The notes under the pieces: model-generated | The model's database searches: none | Seen by the model: only the letters and a program-made list of their open reading frames with translations | What the model was told of the DNA's origin: nothing | Source of the DNA: Phycisphaerae bacterium | Lineage (GTDB): Bacteria > Planctomycetota > Phycisphaerae > Sedimentisphaerales > Anaerohalosphaeraceae | Reading direction: 5' to 3' | Length of the DNA stretch: 64,000 nucleotides | Assembly: GCA_014859965.1 (NCBI GenBank) | Contig: JACZKQ010000108.1 | Span: 62,001 to 126,000 of the forward strand | Made by a program: the position numbers and the translations under genes | In this document: in pieces, positions 4,925 to 13,266 of the stretch | Layout: every line of letters starts with the position of its first letter | Position numbering within the stretch: the stretch's first letter is position 1

Positions 4925-5389
4925 TCACCGGCGCGTGCAAAGCACTCTGATCAGCCGTACGACCACGCGCGGCATCCCTGGGAAAAAGTGTTCAAACGGC
5001 TGAATGTCGGCGACGTTCGGCCGCTCGTCCCGGTCGTGTTTGATGCCGGGACACCCCTGGTCATAATACAGCCGGCCGCCAATATTGTACCATGGGTATT
5101 CGATGCATCCGCGCGGCCGCCTGGCGTAAATGCTGCACAGCCCCGCGTCCAGAAGACAGCATGCCGTGCCTTTGGATTTAACAAAACATCCCGCTTTCGT
5201 CCTGGTGAGGGCCGCCGGATCTATCCGCAGCGCCTCATCCTCACTGACGCGCGGCGCCCCAAGGTTCAGGCAGCATTTGACACAGGCGTCCGCGAGGCAG
5301 TCCAGGCGCGTCGCTTCGGTCGCAGGCGACAGGTGAAGCAACCCCTTCCTGCGTGCCTTCAAGACGGCCCTGATCAACGTTAGGTTCAT
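4925..5389 (-). CDS. CxxCxxCC-type (YkgJ/FliB-like) cysteine-cluster protein, last gene of the CDPS operon
   Basis: A 154-residue protein carrying the YkgJ-family metal-cluster signature: Cys31, Cys36, Cys39 and Cys40 (CLADACVKCC), then Cys68, Cys77, Cys78, Cys85 and Cys95 (CSIYARRPRGC). The family is annotated as a putative zinc- or iron-chelating domain and includes flagellin lysine N-methylase FliB. The start at 5389 overlaps the symporter stop by ATGA, so it is translationally coupled and belongs to the CDPS operon. Inference only: it could modify the cyclodipeptide or protect or mature a partner. The cluster chemistry cannot be read from sequence. Confidence 0.82.
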   Translation of the reverse strand: MNLTLIRAVLKARRKGLLHLSPATEATRLDCLADACVKCCLNLGAPRVSEDEALRIDPAALTRTKAGCFVKSKGTACCLLDAGLCSIYARRPRGCIEYPWYNIGGRLYYDQGCPGIKHDRDERPNVADIQPFEHFFPGMPRVVVRLIRVLCTRR

Positions 5390-6879
5390 GATTGAAAACG
5401 GGCCCCACTGTTCTTGAGCAGCATGCCGATGCACATAAACGTCGTGGACACCACGAGACTGAAGACCGGCGCCAGAAACACCAGGTTCGTGTTCCTCGTG
5501 TAGGCGCCAAGCAGCGCCGCTTCCCATCCCGCGATGAACCCCGCCGATACCGCAACCGCCGCCCACGCCGACATGCCTTTGAGCCTTTCCGACGGCAGCA
5601 GCAGCGCCGCGATCACGAGAGGGCACAAAGCCACCTGCGCACCGTAAATGGCGAATACCATATCGACAATCGTGAACCTCTCGCTGAGCACATGCACAAG
5701 CGCTGTCGATAACACCGCCGCCGCCACCAGAATCGTCCGCGAAATCGTAAGTTCTCGGCTGGCTATCAGTCGCTCGGCCAGCGGATGTTTTCGCATCCTC
5801 GAAAACACGTCTTCGTAAAGCGTATGTGATACCGCAATTAATTGCGTCGAAGCGGTCGACAGCATGGCCCCGTAGAGTCCAAGGCACGCAATAAACAGAA
5901 TGCCGCCGCCCACCGGGCCTTTCGTCTGCCCGATGATTCCAAGCAGCGAAAACAGCGGATTGACGCCTTCCTGCGGCGCAACGATAACAAACACGAAACA
6001 CGCCAGAAGGACAAACACCGACCATGTCGCCGCCGACCCCAACACACTCGACCAGAGTCCCTGCATCACCGTTTCAGTCCTTCTGGCCCCGGCGATGCGC
6101 TGCCAGATGCTCATGTCCGAAATAAACGTCATCACGTTCATAATGAAAATGCCCGCGATGAAGATCAGGAGCGTCCCCGACCATTGCGGAGCAAGCGCGT
6201 CAGCCGGTATGCGCTGAAGGCCCTGGGCCCAACCGCCGTGCGTGACCACCCACAGCACGTAAAAAGCCGGCAGTGCCAGCAGCAGCAGCCATATCGAGAT
6301 CATTTGTATGCGGTCTGTGACGATGACTGCCCGAAAGCCGCCGAAGGCCGTATAGACAAACGCCACCACCGACAGCACCACCACGACGGTCCACTGCGGG
6401 GCCGCCGGGACCAGCGCTGCGAACAGCCGCGAACCGATGGTCAGTTCCACCGCAAAGGCGCCGAGGAAGCCCATGCTCGTAAATGCCGCGCCCACGTAGG
6501 ACAGCACCCGCGAATCATACTCTCTGCCCAAAAACTCGTGAAGCGTCGGCCGATGGTCGTACGCCGAAAGCCGGAGCCATATCTTCCTGGCAAAGAGCCT
6601 TACGACCAGTAATCCCAGAGACGTGGTGATGACCGTCCAGAACAGCCAGAGGCCAATGCTCTGTGCGAGTTCGAAGAACGCCATGACCACGGTCGCCAAC
6701 GACAGTGTCGTCGCTACCGTGCTGGCTGAAAACTCGGCTGAACTCTCCACCTGGGCCCGTTTGCCAATCCCCATTGGCAGCAGGTCGGCAATGCCCTTGG
6801 CGCCTCGGCCGACGAAGACCCCCACCCCTATATACACGACGAAAGCCAGCAGCAGCGCACTGATGACGATCGCACTCAT
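5386..6879 (-). CDS. Sodium:solute symporter (SSS family) in the CDPS operon
   Basis: A 497-residue integral membrane protein with about 13 hydrophobic segments. It shows SSS-family features: the first helix pair around VVYIGVGVFVGRGAKG, the STVATTLSLATVVM segment, YTAFGGFRAVIVTDRIQM (matching the family GGxxAVxxTDxxQ motif) and STASTQLIAVSHTLYEDVF. The start at 6879 overlaps the CDPS stop by ATGA. The position between CDPS and the cysteine-cluster gene suggests movement of the cyclodipeptide or an amino-acid precursor (family members import proline, pantothenate, sugars and others). That role is inference. The direction of such carriers is normally inward with sodium. Confidence 0.9.
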   Translation of the reverse strand: MSAIVISALLLAFVVYIGVGVFVGRGAKGIADLLPMGIGKRAQVESSAEFSASTVATTLSLATVVMAFFELAQSIGLWLFWTVITTSLGLLVVRLFARKIWLRLSAYDHRPTLHEFLGREYDSRVLSYVGAAFTSMGFLGAFAVELTIGSRLFAALVPAAPQWTVVVVLSVVAFVYTAFGGFRAVIVTDRIQMISIWLLLLALPAFYVLWVVTHGGWAQGLQRIPADALAPQWSGTLLIFIAGIFIMNVMTFISDMSIWQRIAGARRTETVMQGLWSSVLGSAATWSVFVLLACFVFVIVAPQEGVNPLFSLLGIIGQTKGPVGGGILFIACLGLYGAMLSTASTQLIAVSHTLYEDVFSRMRKHPLAERLIASRELTISRTILVAAAVLSTALVHVLSERFTIVDMVFAIYGAQVALCPLVIAALLLPSERLKGMSAWAAVAVSAGFIAGWEAALLGAYTRNTNLVFLAPVFSLVVSTTFMCIGMLLKNSGARFQS

Positions 6880-7610
6880 TGCGCTTCGACCCCGCACCTG
6901 CCGCACTGCAGTTGCACATTGATCCGCTGCTTGAGACCCTGCGGAACATCTTCAAACGTTCCCCGAGCCACCTCCACCAGCACGTGCAATTCCGGTCCCG
7001 GGTACAACTCCACGTGCCATCCCCTCTCCGACAGCGCCGAAAAAACGGCGATCTCTTCCAGCAGGTATTGGCATGAAACAGCGACCGCTTCTTCTTCAGG
7101 CACCGCCAGCCGCTTATTGCGCCGTAACTGGCGATTCACAAAGGCAGTCGCGTCCTTCCGCACCGCCTCCGAGAACGCCGAATCTGAGGCAAACAGCCTA
7201 TCCAGTTGCGCCCGGCTTTCAGCATATTCATCGAACGCGGTGCAGTCCTGCCAGCGGACGAGTTTCAGCCGGTCCGGGTCCGTACCGGCGAATATGCCGC
7301 GCGTCGTCTCTATGAAAGCGTCGCCGGCTGCCAGCGAGGCTTTGACGGCGGCGCCGTCATCCGCACCGTTGAGAATGTATTCGTTGTGTCTGCGAAGATA
7401 ATCGCCCGTGATCACGAGGCAGTGGTCAAAGTGCTTTCCGGCCCACGCCAGAAGGGCCTCCAGCGGCTTCCCCTGAAACACCGGATTGTCGAGGCTGATG
7501 CCCATGTAGCACCGCCGGTGCTTCAGAAGCGCCTCTTCGGATAGCTCCGGCGTGGTTGTGACAATATGTACCGGAGGCAAATTCCGATTAGCCCAGTGTG
7601 ATTCCGACAT
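6876..7610 (-). CDS. tRNA-dependent cyclodipeptide synthase (CDPS)
   Basis: Predicted to make a 2,5-diketopiperazine from two aminoacyl-tRNAs. The 244-residue protein aligns by eye along its length with AlbC and YvmC. The nucleophile motif GISLDN (Gly37, Ser39, Asn42) matches GISxxN, where the AlbC Ser37 carries the aminoacyl-enzyme. LLAWAGKHFD matches the helix after it. LKLVRWQD...YAESRAQLDRLF matches the mid-protein helices. YLLEE (Tyr182, Glu186) matches AlbC Tyr178/Glu182. Tyr203-Pro204 sits where NYH enzymes have Tyr-His. A CxxC (236-239) ends the protein. The ATG at 7610 lies inside the end of the regulator gene (23-bp overlap) with AGGGAA upstream; an in-frame start at 7646 is possible. 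The amino acids used cannot be predicted. Confidence 0.9.
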   Translation of the reverse strand: MSESHWANRNLPPVHIVTTTPELSEEALLKHRRCYMGISLDNPVFQGKPLEALLAWAGKHFDHCLVITGDYLRRHNEYILNGADDGAAVKASLAAGDAFIETTRGIFAGTDPDRLKLVRWQDCTAFDEYAESRAQLDRLFASDSAFSEAVRKDATAFVNRQLRRNKRLAVPEEEAVAVSCQYLLEEIAVFSALSERGWHVELYPGPELHVLVEVARGTFEDVPQGLKQRINVQLQCGRCGVEAQ

Positions 7611-8745
7611 CGTCCAGCAGTTCCCTGATAAGCACCAGTTTTTCACACGTTTCGTCGTACGCGAGGCTTGTACCGTAAAGGTCGCCGCTGGCGACCCCGG
7701 TCTCGGCGTTATCGATAAACGGGACCACGTAGCCCGTCGTCATGATATAAAACCAAAGGTTGTTCATCGCCATGCTTCGATGCTGCAGGACCTTATCGAT
7801 CCGTTCGCTGAGACCCTCGCCCTGGCGAACCAGCAGCTTGTCACCAATAGCGGCGTCAAAACCCTTCAGGAGGGGTTCGTACCTCATGCGTTCGGCTTCG
7901 AACTTTTCCTTCAGGCACCGGACGATCTGCTGAGCGGCGGAACCCCTGTTTGCTTGCGGCGGGTCGCGATGGATCAGCACCATCTTGCGAAAGTTCTCTT
8001 CCCACAAAAACGTATAGTCGAACGTGTCCACGTTGAGGATAATTTCTGGCTTGCGCACCACGCCGATGATGTAGGAGATTCGGTTCTTGTGCGTGCCTTC
8101 CCACCGGCCCAGTTCCTCCGGCGTCACGCGCGGCGTGATATGCTTGAGGTTTTCAACCAGCTGCAGCACCGTATCCAGGTAAAAAGGTGCTACTCCCTGC
8201 AGGATATTCCCGATTTTGTCGTACAATTGACCCGAGATAGGGTGGGCATACGTGGGCGTCATGAAATTGCGAATCTCTTCAGCCGTCAGACTCGCAGGCT
8301 CGGTCGTCAAAAATGTATGCAGTTCCCTGTCGATCCCCAGTGCCGTGATCCGCCGTGCGACCTCGGCAGGTTCGGCTGTTTCGATGATTTCCCACAGGCC
8401 GTCAAACCGGTTCAGCAGGGCGGTCATACCCGGGTTGACCTCCTTCACCAGATTAACGACCGCCTGCATATCGTTGGCGGACTGCCGCGATGAATCGATA
8501 AGCTGAATCGCCACCAATATCTGACAAAGCGGTACAAACTCGATCGTCTCGAATGTCTGAATGATTCGGATCGCCCGCGACGGCTGCAAAACCGCCGATC
8601 CCGCCTCCACCATACGATAGTGGCTGGCGGCCAGACCCAGCGATGCAGCAATATCTGAAGACGAAATGCCGCCCATGCGATCACGGGTGGTTTGCAGCAC
8701 CACCCCAAGGGCCTGCGCAAGCGGATTTCGTATTTTTGAAGCCAT
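7588..8745 (-). CDS. HTH (XRE-like) regulator with large uncharacterised C-terminal domain, first gene of the CDPS operon
   Basis: A 385-residue protein. Residues about 8-65 look like a lambda-repressor-type helix-turn-helix: LGVVLQTTRDRMG, then SSSDIAASLGLAASHYRMVEAGSAVL. The remaining 300 residues, mostly helical with segments such as WEGTHKNRISYIIGVVRKPE and FDYTFLWEENFRKMVLIHRDPP, match no domain I know and may sense a ligand. The stop overlaps the CDPS start, so regulator and synthase are co-translated. A perfect palindrome (8811-8832) next to its own promoter suggests autoregulation. The ATG at 8745 is the only good start. Confidence 0.75.
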   Translation of the reverse strand: MASKIRNPLAQALGVVLQTTRDRMGGISSSDIAASLGLAASHYRMVEAGSAVLQPSRAIRIIQTFETIEFVPLCQILVAIQLIDSSRQSANDMQAVVNLVKEVNPGMTALLNRFDGLWEIIETAEPAEVARRITALGIDRELHTFLTTEPASLTAEEIRNFMTPTYAHPISGQLYDKIGNILQGVAPFYLDTVLQLVENLKHITPRVTPEELGRWEGTHKNRISYIIGVVRKPEIILNVDTFDYTFLWEENFRKMVLIHRDPPQANRGSAAQQIVRCLKEKFEAERMRYEPLLKGFDAAIGDKLLVRQGEGLSERIDKVLQHRSMAMNNLWFYIMTTGYVVPFIDNAETGVASGDLYGTSLAYDETCEKLVLIRELLDDVGITLG

Positions 8746-8782
8746 TTATCAGCCTTACCTGCCTCTACTCTCGATACACCAA

Positions 8783-8810
8783 AGTATACCAGTTATGCAA
8801 AAAACAGCAA
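8783..8810 (-). promoter_or_regulatory. Promoter of the CDPS operon
   Basis: On the minus strand TTGCTG (8805-8810) and TATACT (8783-8788) are 16 nt apart, giving a plausible sigma-70-type promoter about 40 bp upstream of the regulator start. A second -35-like TTGACA lies inside the adjacent palindrome but has no well-spaced -10. Confidence 0.6.
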
Positions 8811-8832
8811 ACTAAAATGTCAACATTTTAGT
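8811..8832. promoter_or_regulatory. Perfect palindrome, probable operator for the HTH regulator
   Basis: Two 10-bp arms, ACTAAAATGT and ACATTTTAGT, are exact reverse complements separated by CA. The site directly abuts the -35 box of the operon promoter and lies in AT-rich DNA, unlike its surroundings. A dimeric HTH protein fits such a site. The position just upstream of -35 suits either an activator or a repressor that blocks polymerase. Confidence 0.65.
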
Positions 8833-8927
8833 CATCATTGTTCGCTTGGCTTAATTGTGGTCTAAAGACTGTTTTTGAGCCAAGAACAGGGTCGGCAAAA
8901 ATAATTTAACAAAAATGAAAAAATTAT

Positions 8928-8956
8928 TTGACTTTCAGGTCCGATGGGCGTATTCT
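8928..8956 (+). promoter_or_regulatory. Promoter for the Tyr-rich/TPR protein gene
   Basis: TTGACT (8928-8933), 17 nt, TATTCT (8951-8956), preceded by a strongly AT-rich tract that could act as an UP element. It would give a leader of about 160 nt before the ATG at 9124. The same two hexamers at the same spacing occur before cbiM (39756-39784, minus strand). Confidence 0.6.
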
Positions 8957-9123
8957 TTTATTAGAAGCGACAACCGTTACAACCGCTACTTTCCACCAGC
9001 GGTTTGACGAGCGCGGCAGATGGCAAGTTCTTGAGCAAGAGAATATCGAATTCTTCTGACGGGCCGGAAGGGACTGCAATCGCAAACCAGCGGCCTAAGA
9101 CCTGCCAGGGAAAGGAGAGAATC

Positions 9124-11910
9124 ATGTTAACCCGCCGATCTCACAAGTGGCTGATTGCGGCATTGCTTTGTCTTGGCATGCTGTGCGTAAACAACCGCAC
9201 CGGAGCCAATCCGCCCGGAGCGCCAGCCGAAAAAAGTGCCGCGCCCGCTCGTGCGGCCAAATCCTCGTCGCCCGCCCCCGCCTCCAGGCCCTCGGCGCCT
9301 GCGCGTGCCGCCTCGCCGGCGCCCAGGGCGGCGGCCCCTGCGCCGAGAGTGTCTTCGCCTCCGACGAGCACCAGCAGGCCCGCTGCACCGTCAAGGGTCG
9401 CGCCGCAGCCGAGAGCGTCGGCACCGCAAACAAGTGCTCCCAGAAGTCCTGTTTCGACCCCTCATCCGGTTTCTCCGCCGGTCAGCCGAAGCACCCCGAC
9501 GCGGTCTTCGCCCTCGAGTGTAAGTGCGCCGACGACGCAAACTTTTTCGTCCCCTGTCCGACGGTATGTCGAGGTGGCGCCGCGCACCAGCGCCTCCTCC
9601 TCCGCAAGTCGGGAACGGACAGTTACCAGTGCAGGCAGCAACAGTTCATCGGCTGCCGCGGGGAGCGAATTTGGATCCAGGGCCACCGTCATTACGCCGC
9701 TGCGCACCGCCCCGGCAGCCTCCAACAGTTCACCGTCCTCCACTGTGAACAGCCAGACCATTCGAACCCCGCTTTCGTCACGTGTGACGATCGGATCCTC
9801 TGCGCTGTCACAGAAGGTTGACATCGGTCCGGCCGAACCGAAGACCGAGCCCATACGTCTTCAATCACCGGCCGCCGCAAGCCCCAAAGCTTCGTCCGTG
9901 CCGTCGACAAGCGGGCCTGTTCAAAGCACACCGACACGTGCGGATACTCAGGGCGTGACGTCTTCCAGGTCGGTGGCTGCTCCCATCCGGGTTCAGCCGC
10001 CCGCCAAGCGCGAGGCGACCGACACGCCGGCCAACCCGGGCGCCAGCCCCACTTCAAGTAAACCCATAACTTCGCGTAACACTGTCGGCGACGCTGCGAA
10101 CAGGCCTGTTTCCATACCTCTCGAAGTCTCTGCGGCAAGGGCCGCCCCAAGTGCAAAGGCCGTGACCCGTCCCTCGACGGACCGCTTGACCAGTATGCCT
10201 TCAGCGGAACGCAAAAGTGACGTCGGCCGTATCGTCGAGCCCATTCGCATCCCGCCCATTGTTCGGTCGCCTGTAGCCAGCAATTCAGCCGAGAATGCGG
10301 AAAGGGCGAAAACATTGCCGGAGGCTGCACGAACCCCGGTTTCACGCAGTCCCCAGCCGATCGGCGAACGGTCTCAAGCAGGCGAGATTTCACCTGCCGC
10401 AGGCAAGATCGGCCTTGGCGACATGCGCCAGAGCAAGGCCATCGCCGGTCCCTCCGAACGCACATCATCATCGCCCACAAGCCCGGTTTCCGCGAACTCT
10501 GGCGATAAGACCCGCACAGACGTCACGCGAACTCCCAAAGAAGTTACTTCCCCGGTCAGCAGAGATCGCCTGGCGTCCGGTGAGGGCCCGACAACCAAAG
10601 CAGGGCCGGATCGCCGAAATATTGACACTCCGCGCGGCCCGCAAACCAGGCAGCCTGACAGCGAGCCGACGCGAGGCCGCAATGATCTCTCGGATGGCCC
10701 GCGAACGAAGACCGATGGCTTCGCGGGGCGCCAAATGGATTCCGACCGGAGTAGCCCCGGAAGAAGAAGCGAGACGACGAACACGCATTCCAATTCGTCT
10801 ACCGACCAATCCGTCAACATCAGCGGCAACAACAATGTTTACATCAATGGCAATGTCAGCGGGTACTACCCCACGCCTTACAGGGCAGATCGCTACCACA
10901 CCGTCATTCGTCGACACCACTTCCAGCAGAGCAGTCACTGGCTCGACTGCGGCAGCTATTATGTCCTGAACTGGTCTCAGCATAGTTGCGGCCGCGTCAT
11001 TGGCCTTCAATACGCCCCGTATTATGGATACGGCGTTTCCTACTACTATCCAAGTTACCATCGCAAGCATCTCTTCTTCAGCATCGGCGGCTACTGGCCC
11101 GATTACTATCGGTATCGCCGTTACTATTGGTACGGATGCCATCCGTATCGCTGGTATGGCGCGTATGTGATCGATCCGCCGCTCGTCCAGCCGGTGGTCC
11201 AAAACGTCTATCACATTACCTATGAAACTCCTGCTCCGGTCGGAGCGGGCTACAATTACGATTACAAGTACGACCCGGCGTACGAAGACTTCAGCGACGT
11301 CCGCGAAAAGATCAGGCGCGAAGCCGCCGCCCGGACGGAAGACAGCCCCCAGCCCGAGACCAGCGCCGACATGTGCTTCGAACAAGCCGTCCAGCTTTTC
11401 GCCCAAGGCAAGTACGAACAAGCCGTTTTCAAACTGCGGGTCGCCATGATTCTTGAGCCGGAGGACGTTGTACTGCCCTTTGCCTACAGCCAGGCCCTCT
11501 TCGCCACGGGCGATTACGACGCCGCCTCGGCTGCACTCAGCGCCACCCTTGAGACGATGAAGCGTCAGGACCAGGAAACCGTCTACTATCCGCGGGGGCT
11601 TTACGAGGACGAAAAAGTTCTCCATACTCAAATCGCCGCACTCGCCGAGGCCGTTCGGAAAAATCCGGAAAAAGCCGACTATCAATTATTGTTAGGCTAT
11701 CAACTCCTGGGCTCCGGACGTGTAGATGAAGCCATCACCCCACTTCATGAGACGCTCGAAAGCAATGTCGCAAATGCTCCCGCGATGATGCTGATCAAGC
11801 TGCTCGAACAGATCAAGGCCGACCAGGCCGCCGCCGAAGCCGCCGCCGCTCAGGGGCAGCCGCTGGAAAGCGGCGAGGCCGCCGACACGGCGCATGCCGA
11901 AGAAAGGTAA
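9124..11910 (+). CDS. Large exported protein: low-complexity Ser/Pro/Ala region, Tyr-rich region, C-terminal TPR
   Basis: A 928-residue protein with three parts. Residues 1 to about 28 form a signal peptide (KWLIAALLCLGMLC core). Residues about 30-560 are low-complexity Ser/Pro/Ala/Thr/Arg, with recurring phrases such as PIRVQPP, PIRLQSP and PIRIPP. At about 564, SVNISGNNNVYINGNVSGYY leads into a Tyr/His/Trp-rich stretch (about 580-700) ending with PPLVQPVVQNVYHITYE. From about 750, TPR-like helices (FEQAVQLFAQGKYEQAVFKL, then AYSQALFATGDYDAA) run to near the end. The ATG at 9124 follows AAGGAGA; an upstream in-frame extension to 9004 lacks a signal peptide. Probably an envelope or extracellular matrix protein. 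No homologous function is recognised. Confidence 0.8.
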   Translation: MLTRRSHKWLIAALLCLGMLCVNNRTGANPPGAPAEKSAAPARAAKSSSPAPASRPSAPARAASPAPRAAAPAPRVSSPPTSTSRPAAPSRVAPQPRASAPQTSAPRSPVSTPHPVSPPVSRSTPTRSSPSSVSAPTTQTFSSPVRRYVEVAPRTSASSSASRERTVTSAGSNSSSAAAGSEFGSRATVITPLRTAPAASNSSPSSTVNSQTIRTPLSSRVTIGSSALSQKVDIGPAEPKTEPIRLQSPAAASPKASSVPSTSGPVQSTPTRADTQGVTSSRSVAAPIRVQPPAKREATDTPANPGASPTSSKPITSRNTVGDAANRPVSIPLEVSAARAAPSAKAVTRPSTDRLTSMPSAERKSDVGRIVEPIRIPPIVRSPVASNSAENAERAKTLPEAARTPVSRSPQPIGERSQAGEISPAAGKIGLGDMRQSKAIAGPSERTSSSPTSPVSANSGDKTRTDVTRTPKEVTSPVSRDRLASGEGPTTKAGPDRRNIDTPRGPQTRQPDSEPTRGRNDLSDGPRTKTDGFAGRQMDSDRSSPGRRSETTNTHSNSSTDQSVNISGNNNVYINGNVSGYYPTPYRADRYHTVIRRHHFQQSSHWLDCGSYYVLNWSQHSCGRVIGLQYAPYYGYGVSYYYPSYHRKHLFFSIGGYWPDYYRYRRYYWYGCHPYRWYGAYVIDPPLVQPVVQNVYHITYETPAPVGAGYNYDYKYDPAYEDFSDVREKIRREAAARTEDSPQPETSADMCFEQAVQLFAQGKYEQAVFKLRVAMILEPEDVVLPFAYSQALFATGDYDAASAALSATLETMKRQDQETVYYPRGLYEDEKVLHTQIAALAEAVRKNPEKADYQLLLGYQLLGSGRVDEAITPLHETLESNVANAPAMMLIKLLEQIKADQAAAEAAAAQGQPLESGEAADTAHAEER

Positions 11911-11991: not shown

Positions 11992-12120
11992 CATCGCTGA
12001 ATGTGGCGCTTAGGAGAAGGGCCCAATATGCCCGACGGGCGGCACGGCGGCCGCCACCTCGATTATCATCGACTGTATTGTCCGGGTGATTCGTTTTTCG
12101 AATGTGCGAGGATAAAAGCG

Positions 12121-13266
12121 ATGAAACGTACAGTTGTGATTGCCTCCGTGACTTTTCTGACGATGGCCATATCCGCGTTCGCCGCGCCATGGATTGAGTT
12201 TGCGGTTGCCCCTTCCATCGAAAACCAGGAAAGGCCCGACGTCCACGGCACCAGGATCGTATGGCAGCAGCACGTCAGCGATGGTGAAGGCAACTGGGAC
12301 TGGGACGTCTGCTTCATCGATCTCGACGCCGCCGAAGGCGATGCTATTAACCTGACATGGTATGCCGGCAACCAGCAGAGCCCCAGGATACACGGAAACC
12401 GCGTGGTCTGGGAGGACGACTCGTTTGGAGACTGGGACATTTTTGTGACCGATGTTGCTGATCCTGAACTTCCCATGGAATGGGCGGTCACCCCATTTCT
12501 GGATAATCAGCAGCATCCTGCTATCTATCGCAACATCGTGGTCTGGCAGGACGATAGCGCCGGCGACATGGACATATGGGCCGCGGAACTGACGGACCCC
12601 GACAATCCTTACGTCTTTGGCGTAGCGCTCTTCGATGCCGATCAGCAGGCTCCCGTCATATACAACCGCACCGTCATTTGGGAGGACAACTATTTCGGCG
12701 ACTGGGATATTTTCTCCGCTGATATTGTTGACACCGAAGCGCCGACTGTGCGAGCGGTTTCCCTCACTGATTACGACCAGCAGAATGCTTCTGTGTGGGG
12801 CGACCTCGTGGTCTGGCAGGAGAATATCAGTGGCGACTGGCAGATCTGGGCTGCTGACATGTCCGATCCCGATGCACCCGTCGAGTTTCCCATTGTCGAA
12901 GCAGGGTCATTGCAGAAGAACCCGCACATAGGCGACAATATTGTTGTCTGGCAGGATTTTCGAAACGGCAAAGACTGGGACGTCTATGGATATAATCTCA
13001 CCACTCGCCGCGAGTTTCGCATCACCGACCATGCCGCCGACCAGATCAATCCCGCCGTCAGCGGCAATCTGGTTGTCTGGCAGGACGATCGCGACGGCCT
13101 GTGGAACATCTACGCCGTCGAACTCAGCGGCCCCGAAGCGGCCCGCTGTGCCGCACGACCTGTCGGGGATCTTAATGGCGACTGCATCGTCAATATGGCC
13201 GATCTGGCGGTCCTTGCGGCGCATTGGCTGGAGTGCGGCTTTGACAGCCCCGAAGCCTGCAAGTAA
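12121..13266 (+). CDS. Exported seven-repeat (VVWxDDxxGDWDI) propeller-like protein with dockerin-like C-terminus
   Basis: The 381-residue protein begins with a signal peptide (MKRTVVIASVTFLTMAISAFAA). Seven repeats of about 46-50 residues follow, each with a core like NRVVWEDDSFGDWDIFVTD, NIVVWQDDSAGDMDIWAAE or NLVVWQDDRDGLWNIYAVE. Repeats of this type build TolB-like beta-propellers. The C-terminus has one calcium-loop motif, GDLNGDCIVNMADLAVLAAH, as in dockerin type I repeats that are widespread in Phycisphaerae. The ATG at 12121 has GAGG upstream. The dockerin half-module probably serves in attachment or calcium binding rather than a true cellulosome (inference). Convergent with the BNR gene, 17 bp apart. 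Confidence 0.82.
   Translation: MKRTVVIASVTFLTMAISAFAAPWIEFAVAPSIENQERPDVHGTRIVWQQHVSDGEGNWDWDVCFIDLDAAEGDAINLTWYAGNQQSPRIHGNRVVWEDDSFGDWDIFVTDVADPELPMEWAVTPFLDNQQHPAIYRNIVVWQDDSAGDMDIWAAELTDPDNPYVFGVALFDADQQAPVIYNRTVIWEDNYFGDWDIFSADIVDTEAPTVRAVSLTDYDQQNASVWGDLVVWQENISGDWQIWAADMSDPDAPVEFPIVEAGSLQKNPHIGDNIVVWQDFRNGKDWDVYGYNLTTRREFRITDHAADQINPAVSGNLVVWQDDRDGLWNIYAVELSGPEAARCAARPVGDLNGDCIVNMADLAVLAAHWLECGFDSPEACK

Follow-up and report, generated by a model that had tools for sequence, protein, structure and literature searches.

A tailoring enzyme adjoins nearly every bacterial cyclodipeptide synthase (CDPS), according to a 2014 review (PMC4159871), which also lists transporters of the sodium solute symporter, ABC and MFS types and a variety of transcription factors near CDPS genes. 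The same review names six bacterial phyla with CDPSs, and Planctomycetes is absent from them. The phylum is likewise unmentioned in PMC5767969 and PMC5816076, and a full-text literature search combining CDPS with planctomycetes returned incidental papers only. In this study, we analyzed a four-gene module located in the window, by which we mean the whole 64,000-nucleotide stretch of DNA under analysis. The module encodes a helix-turn-helix (HTH) regulator, a CDPS, a sodium:solute symporter and a cysteine-cluster (CxxCxxCC) protein (Table 1).

We found the four minus-strand open reading frames at all of the positions claimed for them in an earlier, sequence-only reading of this DNA. In the order HTH, CDPS, symporter and CxxCxxCC they overlap by exactly 23, 4 and 4 bp, and the last two overlaps are ATGA. 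That reading had also described the locus as an operon that includes its own regulation and transport, a view borne out by the recurrence of the gene order and strand in 15 other genomes. The dN/dS ratios of the module genes in close pairs were 0.08–0.25, values that are rough since several pairs are near synonymous saturation; the genes are therefore selected protein-coding genes. A role in anti-phage defence was considered and rejected, as PADLOC returned zero matches.

Table 1. Features of the module in the window
Feature	Position	Strand	Remark
XRE-type HTH regulator gene	8745-7588	-	385 aa
CDPS gene, XYP subfamily	7610-6876	-	244 aa
Sodium:solute symporter gene	6879-5386	-	497 aa
CxxCxxCC (PF03692) gene	5389-4925	-	154 aa
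-10-like box TATACT	8783-8788	-	TATAAT in most relatives
Conserved promoter/operator element TTGACATTTTAGTTTGCTGTTTTTTGCA	8796-8823	-	module-specific
Inverted repeat ACTAAAATGT-TG-ACATTTTAGT	8811-8832	.	exact; 10-bp arms, 2-bp centre

The distribution of the module was examined in 59 relatives, in 161 genomes of the order and in 392 genomes sampled across the phylum. Twelve further genomes among the 59 relatives carry the CDPS, with 47–66% identity to the window copy, and in all 12 the four genes stand in identical order as far as the contigs reach. The order-wide search added three more complete copies, in another family. Conservation of the neighbours had been named beforehand as a test that could refute the sequence-only reading; the same four genes in the window's order were present, contig ends aside, in a total of 16 genomes. 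Across the 161 genomes of the order the module is all-or-none. Seventeen of them have the HTH protein, namely the 16 with a strong CDPS match and G022, in which the module is split across contigs and a C-terminal piece of the CxxCxxCC protein is present. The CDPS occurs in 16 of the 161, with one additional fragment. CxxCxxCC proteins of the module subfamily score at least 116 bits in 15 of the 161, all of them module genomes, and the next match scores 33 bits; in the module genomes without this gene (G011 and G002) the contigs stop short of it. A 55-residue CDPS-like match with two stops (L050, G486:C102:2422-2586) is a possible decayed remnant of the module or a chance match.

Among the 392 genomes sampled across the phylum, the window genome alone carries the HTH protein, and no second CDPS exceeded the cut-off; two weak matches (L045 and L046) were both below it. 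About 20 CDPS loci, taken from a single class of Pseudomonadota and from one cyanobacterium and in some cases lying on short contigs, had no HTH, symporter or CxxCxxCC gene of this kind nearby. In the trees of the HTH protein, the CDPS and the symporter (L017-L028, L047-L049) the two families of the order are intermixed, while the chromosomal site is constant. Because the trees fail to separate the two families, some transfer inside the order, or uneven losses, likely lies behind the phylogeny of the module. As judged by these genome comparisons, the four genes are inherited as one gene unit and are no chance neighbourhood. The draft state of several genomes is all that speaks for chance neighbours or an accident of one assembly; with the order shared by 16 genomes, the fusions, the translational overlaps and purifying selection, this explanation is refuted by conservation and we give it practically no weight.

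The CDPS exceeded the cut-offs of both family profiles, with 50.6 bits against 27 for PF16715, the check proposed in the sequence-only reading, and 87.2 bits against 45 for TIGR04539. A profile of the clade matched solved CDPSs (9j61, 3e-34; 5ocd, 5e-30; AlbC, 9e-9), the nearest chains being 9j61 and 5ocd, followed by 9i5m, 5mlq and 5mlp. The two best matches are far ahead of AlbC, which places the nearest relatives outside the NYH group. Identity to the two relatives found outside the phylum is about 30%. The catalytic residues of the family, which we take to be G35, S37, Y178, E182 and Y202 in AlbC numbering, have their counterparts in G37, S39, Y182, E186 and Y203, which the alignment shows to be invariant in 16/16 sequences. 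The XYP signature, a proline after the equivalent of AlbC Tyr202, is also invariant (Y203-P204 in all 16). At the level of sequence, the assignment as a CDPS is secure and the enzyme belongs to the XYP subfamily. The CDPS of L028 (at 8598) lacks an ATG, GTG or TTG at the aligned start position and is closely preceded by an in-frame stop, which leaves its true start uncertain.

At the pocket positions given in PMC5816076, which derive from NYH enzymes and may lie elsewhere in the XYP subfamily, all 16 CDPSs carry YG[IV]GWVFE in P1 and D[ASG]FRGEL in P2. No characterized enzyme in the text of Table 2 of that paper matches these motifs, and the cLI/cLL enzymes (FGLGCVFM / FRYRGFS) come nearest in that text. 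The acidic pocket residues E201, D153 and E207 are invariant and unusual. Because they are unlike the cLI/cLL pattern, we assign no product. Since the catalytic residues are intact in 16/16 and both pockets are nearly invariant, the clade probably makes a single product. Alternatively, the CDPS may have been repurposed for an aminoacyl-tRNA-dependent reaction with a product other than a cyclodipeptide, as the pockets without a match in the Table 2 text and the odd acidic residues might suggest. However, the aminoacyl-enzyme and cyclization residues are all retained in 16/16, and we consider a repurposed enzyme very improbable.

The symporter reached 26.1 bits against PF00474 (cut-off 22.8), whereas its TIGR00813 score of 75 bits is under the cut-off of 184. 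About 13 hydrophobic segments can be read from a fragmented hydropathy profile, and the TM8-like segment GLYGAMLSTASTQLIAVS is retained in every aligned copy. A single-sequence search found no solved relatives. By this distant similarity the protein is a member of the sodium:solute symporter family (SSF), and the similarity carries no clue to its substrate. SSF proteins usually import, and their substrates are commonly nutrients.

The CxxCxxCC protein scored 31.6 bits against PF03692 (cut-off 23), and the same profile matched 10/10 of its relatives. Its motif is CX4CX2CC, joined by four further conserved Cys, and overall eight or nine cysteines are conserved: C31, C39, C40, C77, C85, C95 and C113 are kept in 13/13 sequences, and C36 and C151 in 12/13. 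The structure model was unusable (pLDDT 47), and a single-sequence search found no solved relatives of this protein either. In FliB, a CX4CX3CC motif holds a [4Fe-4S] cluster required for methyl transfer, and the authors of that study cite PF03692 as a similar motif (PMC8598068). Given this precedent, a metal or Fe-S cluster in the CxxCxxCC protein is plausible by analogy.

In three genomes, G040 (L021), G464 (L048) and G004 (L027), the symporter and the CxxCxxCC protein form one open reading frame of 650–654 aa. PF03692 was found in 3/3 of these fusions and PF00474 over the cut-off in 2/3; the SSF half of the L021 fusion has 64% identity to the window symporter. The three fusions group in the symporter tree (82/88), and in the CDPS tree they form a group that also includes L028 (87/87); these groupings are consistent with a single fusion event. 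The fused CxxCxxCC domain is presumably cytoplasmic, given the roughly 13 hydrophobic segments and the analogy with PutP. The functional tie between the symporter and the CxxCxxCC protein is strong. A metal-type cysteine cluster fused to a transporter could also belong to a metallophore-like system, in which a metal is bound by the cyclodipeptide, modified or not, the complex is taken back up through the symporter and the metal is stripped off in the cytoplasm by the CxxCxxCC domain. However, an outer-membrane receptor and an oxidase are absent from the module and its regulator is not recognizably of a known metal-sensor family, and we regard such a system as quite unlikely.

The HTH protein is the best kept of the four, with 56–77% identity between relatives and the window copy, compared with 46–65% for the CDPS. 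The window copy alone gave an HTH_3 match (0.017) under the Pfam cut-off, and HTH_3 was matched in 11/11 aligned members (best 3.7e-6). In a predicted model (pLDDT 66), the N-terminal HTH spans approximately residues 5-90 and matches ClgR and C.AhdI (Z 8–9). These results indicate that the protein is an XRE-type regulator. The C-terminal alpha/beta domain (202-382) matched PPK1, PLD, NucT, Zucchini and TrmB/TrmBL2, a coherent set, over about 130 residues with Z scores of 7.5–8.5, which are near background. It is possibly phospholipase-D-like, which we offer as a lead only.

The sequence-only reading had noted a promoter with a perfect palindrome before the operon. The inverted repeat is indeed exact; a role for it as an operator is not supported and was rejected, since it is preserved as a repeat in 0/13 relatives. 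What the relatives share ahead of the HTH gene is TTGACA-nWTTnGYTTG-n4-TTTTTRCA and, after it, a TATAAT-like box, and because this element is conserved instead, the palindrome is probably fortuitous. The element precedes the HTH gene in most relatives and has diverged in L019 and L022. A pattern search of the 5.28-Mb genome gave one perfect match (0 mismatches), the next best having 3, and zero chance matches are expected within the window. TTGACA lies 29–30 bp from TATAAT, too far for one promoter, and hence it more likely belongs to the operator. The simplest reading of the promoter sequences is local autoregulation of the module by the HTH protein.

Divergent from the operon, at 9004-11910 on the plus strand, lies a gene for a secreted-looking, Ser/Pro-rich and Tyr-rich TPR protein of 968 aa, with a motif around YHR..F.S.GGYWP.Y.Y.RYYWY. 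It adjoins the module in 12 loci, the window included, and in the contig-broken G022, G004 and G018. We ruled it out as a fifth member, as its relatives occur in 132/161 genomes of the order, including genomes without the module; it is a landmark, no module member. None of the four module genes was found near it in 14 module-less loci, and the operator element is absent beside it in module-less genomes. A second conserved, A/T-rich element upstream of the module, GTCAAGTnTTTTTTnCATTTTTGT (in the window at 8900-8960), probably belongs to this gene's divergent promoter. The next gene (12001-13266, plus strand) encodes a protein with VVWQD..GDWDIW repeats and a dockerin-like end, and adjoins the TPR gene in eight loci.

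We propose that the four genes form a dedicated, autoregulated cyclodipeptide module in which the symporter and the CxxCxxCC protein jointly handle the product, a proposal which, drawn from sequence comparison, we judge equally liable to be right or wrong. The CDPS would take two aminoacyl groups from aminoacyl-tRNAs and combine them into a specific cyclodipeptide that all members of the clade have in common. The CxxCxxCC protein, the sole tailoring candidate within the module, would be located at the symporter's C-terminus on the cytoplasmic side, where it would bind a metal or an Fe-S cluster and either modify the cyclodipeptide carried by the symporter chemically or load it with metal. Since SSF proteins normally import, recapture of the released product would be likelier than export. 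Through its C-terminal domain, the HTH protein would respond to a small molecule, in the simplest case the product, and it would control the module promoter alone. A bolder form of this proposal, which we advance tentatively and consider somewhat improbable, is a new tRNA-dependent system with a novel CDPS product, in which a PF03692 tailoring or metal-handling enzyme is attached to a cyclodipeptide-carrying symporter and synthesis, transport and modification are coupled at the membrane.

The symporter and the CxxCxxCC protein could serve a purpose unrelated to the cyclodipeptide. In one such scheme, the cyclodipeptide would act solely within the cell, as a signal or effector of the HTH protein, and the HTH protein would control the import, by the two other proteins, of a nutrient or metal-linked solute that has nothing to do with the cyclodipeptide. 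A regulator that is the best conserved of the four and has a possible sensing domain, the general habit of SSF proteins to bring in nutrients, the fusion of the CxxCxxCC protein to the symporter rather than to the CDPS, and a module without a classical tailoring enzyme would all suit such an arrangement. However, the strict co-inheritance of the four genes fits a single pathway at least equally well and symporters adjoin other CDPSs too (PMC4159871), and we think signal-controlled uptake unlikely.

The sequence-only reading had regarded the set of partners as new to CDPS clusters. This holds for the CxxCxxCC protein, which is undescribed in the 2014 and 2018 surveys, and not for the symporter: because symporters near CDPS genes were already named in 2014 (PMC4159871), the symporter alone is no novelty. 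New, then, are the CDPS clade, the presence of a CxxCxxCC protein as a partner and the fusion of that protein to the symporter. A new diketopiperazine system, as that reading suggested, is plausible from the sequences. New diketopiperazines are sought by mining CDPS pathways, and the 2014 and 2018 surveys are silent on the clade and partners of this module. For the widespread, largely uncharacterized PF03692 family the module also provides a defined and testable pathway, and it is a compact setting in which to ask what use cyclodipeptides are to the cell that produces them.

Compared with other XYP CDPSs (9j61, 5ocd and others), the enzyme is alike in family profile, in the catalytic Ser, Tyr, Glu and Tyr and in the Y-P pair, and differs by the pocket motifs of its own clade. 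The two-part architecture of the regulator may resemble that of TrmB-type regulators, which join an HTH to a phospholipase-D-like fold, although the C-terminal match (Z 7.7) is near background, and the module protein has an XRE-type HTH without a sequence match, whereas TrmB-type regulators have a winged HTH. TrmBL2 is without an effector domain (PMC4158304). FliB, a flagellin lysine methyltransferase compared here by motif, has a CX4CX3CC comparable to the CX4CX2CC of the module and eight highly conserved cysteines (PMC8598068) against eight or nine; the module protein has 154 aa and is sometimes fused to a transporter. Described CDPS clusters such as those for albonoursin, pulcherriminic acid and bicyclomycin (PMC4159871, PMC5767969) have, as here, a regulator and a transporter beside the CDPS. 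The module differs from them in having no oxidase, P450, methyltransferase or hydrolase, and in its PF03692 partner, which in three genomes is fused to the symporter.
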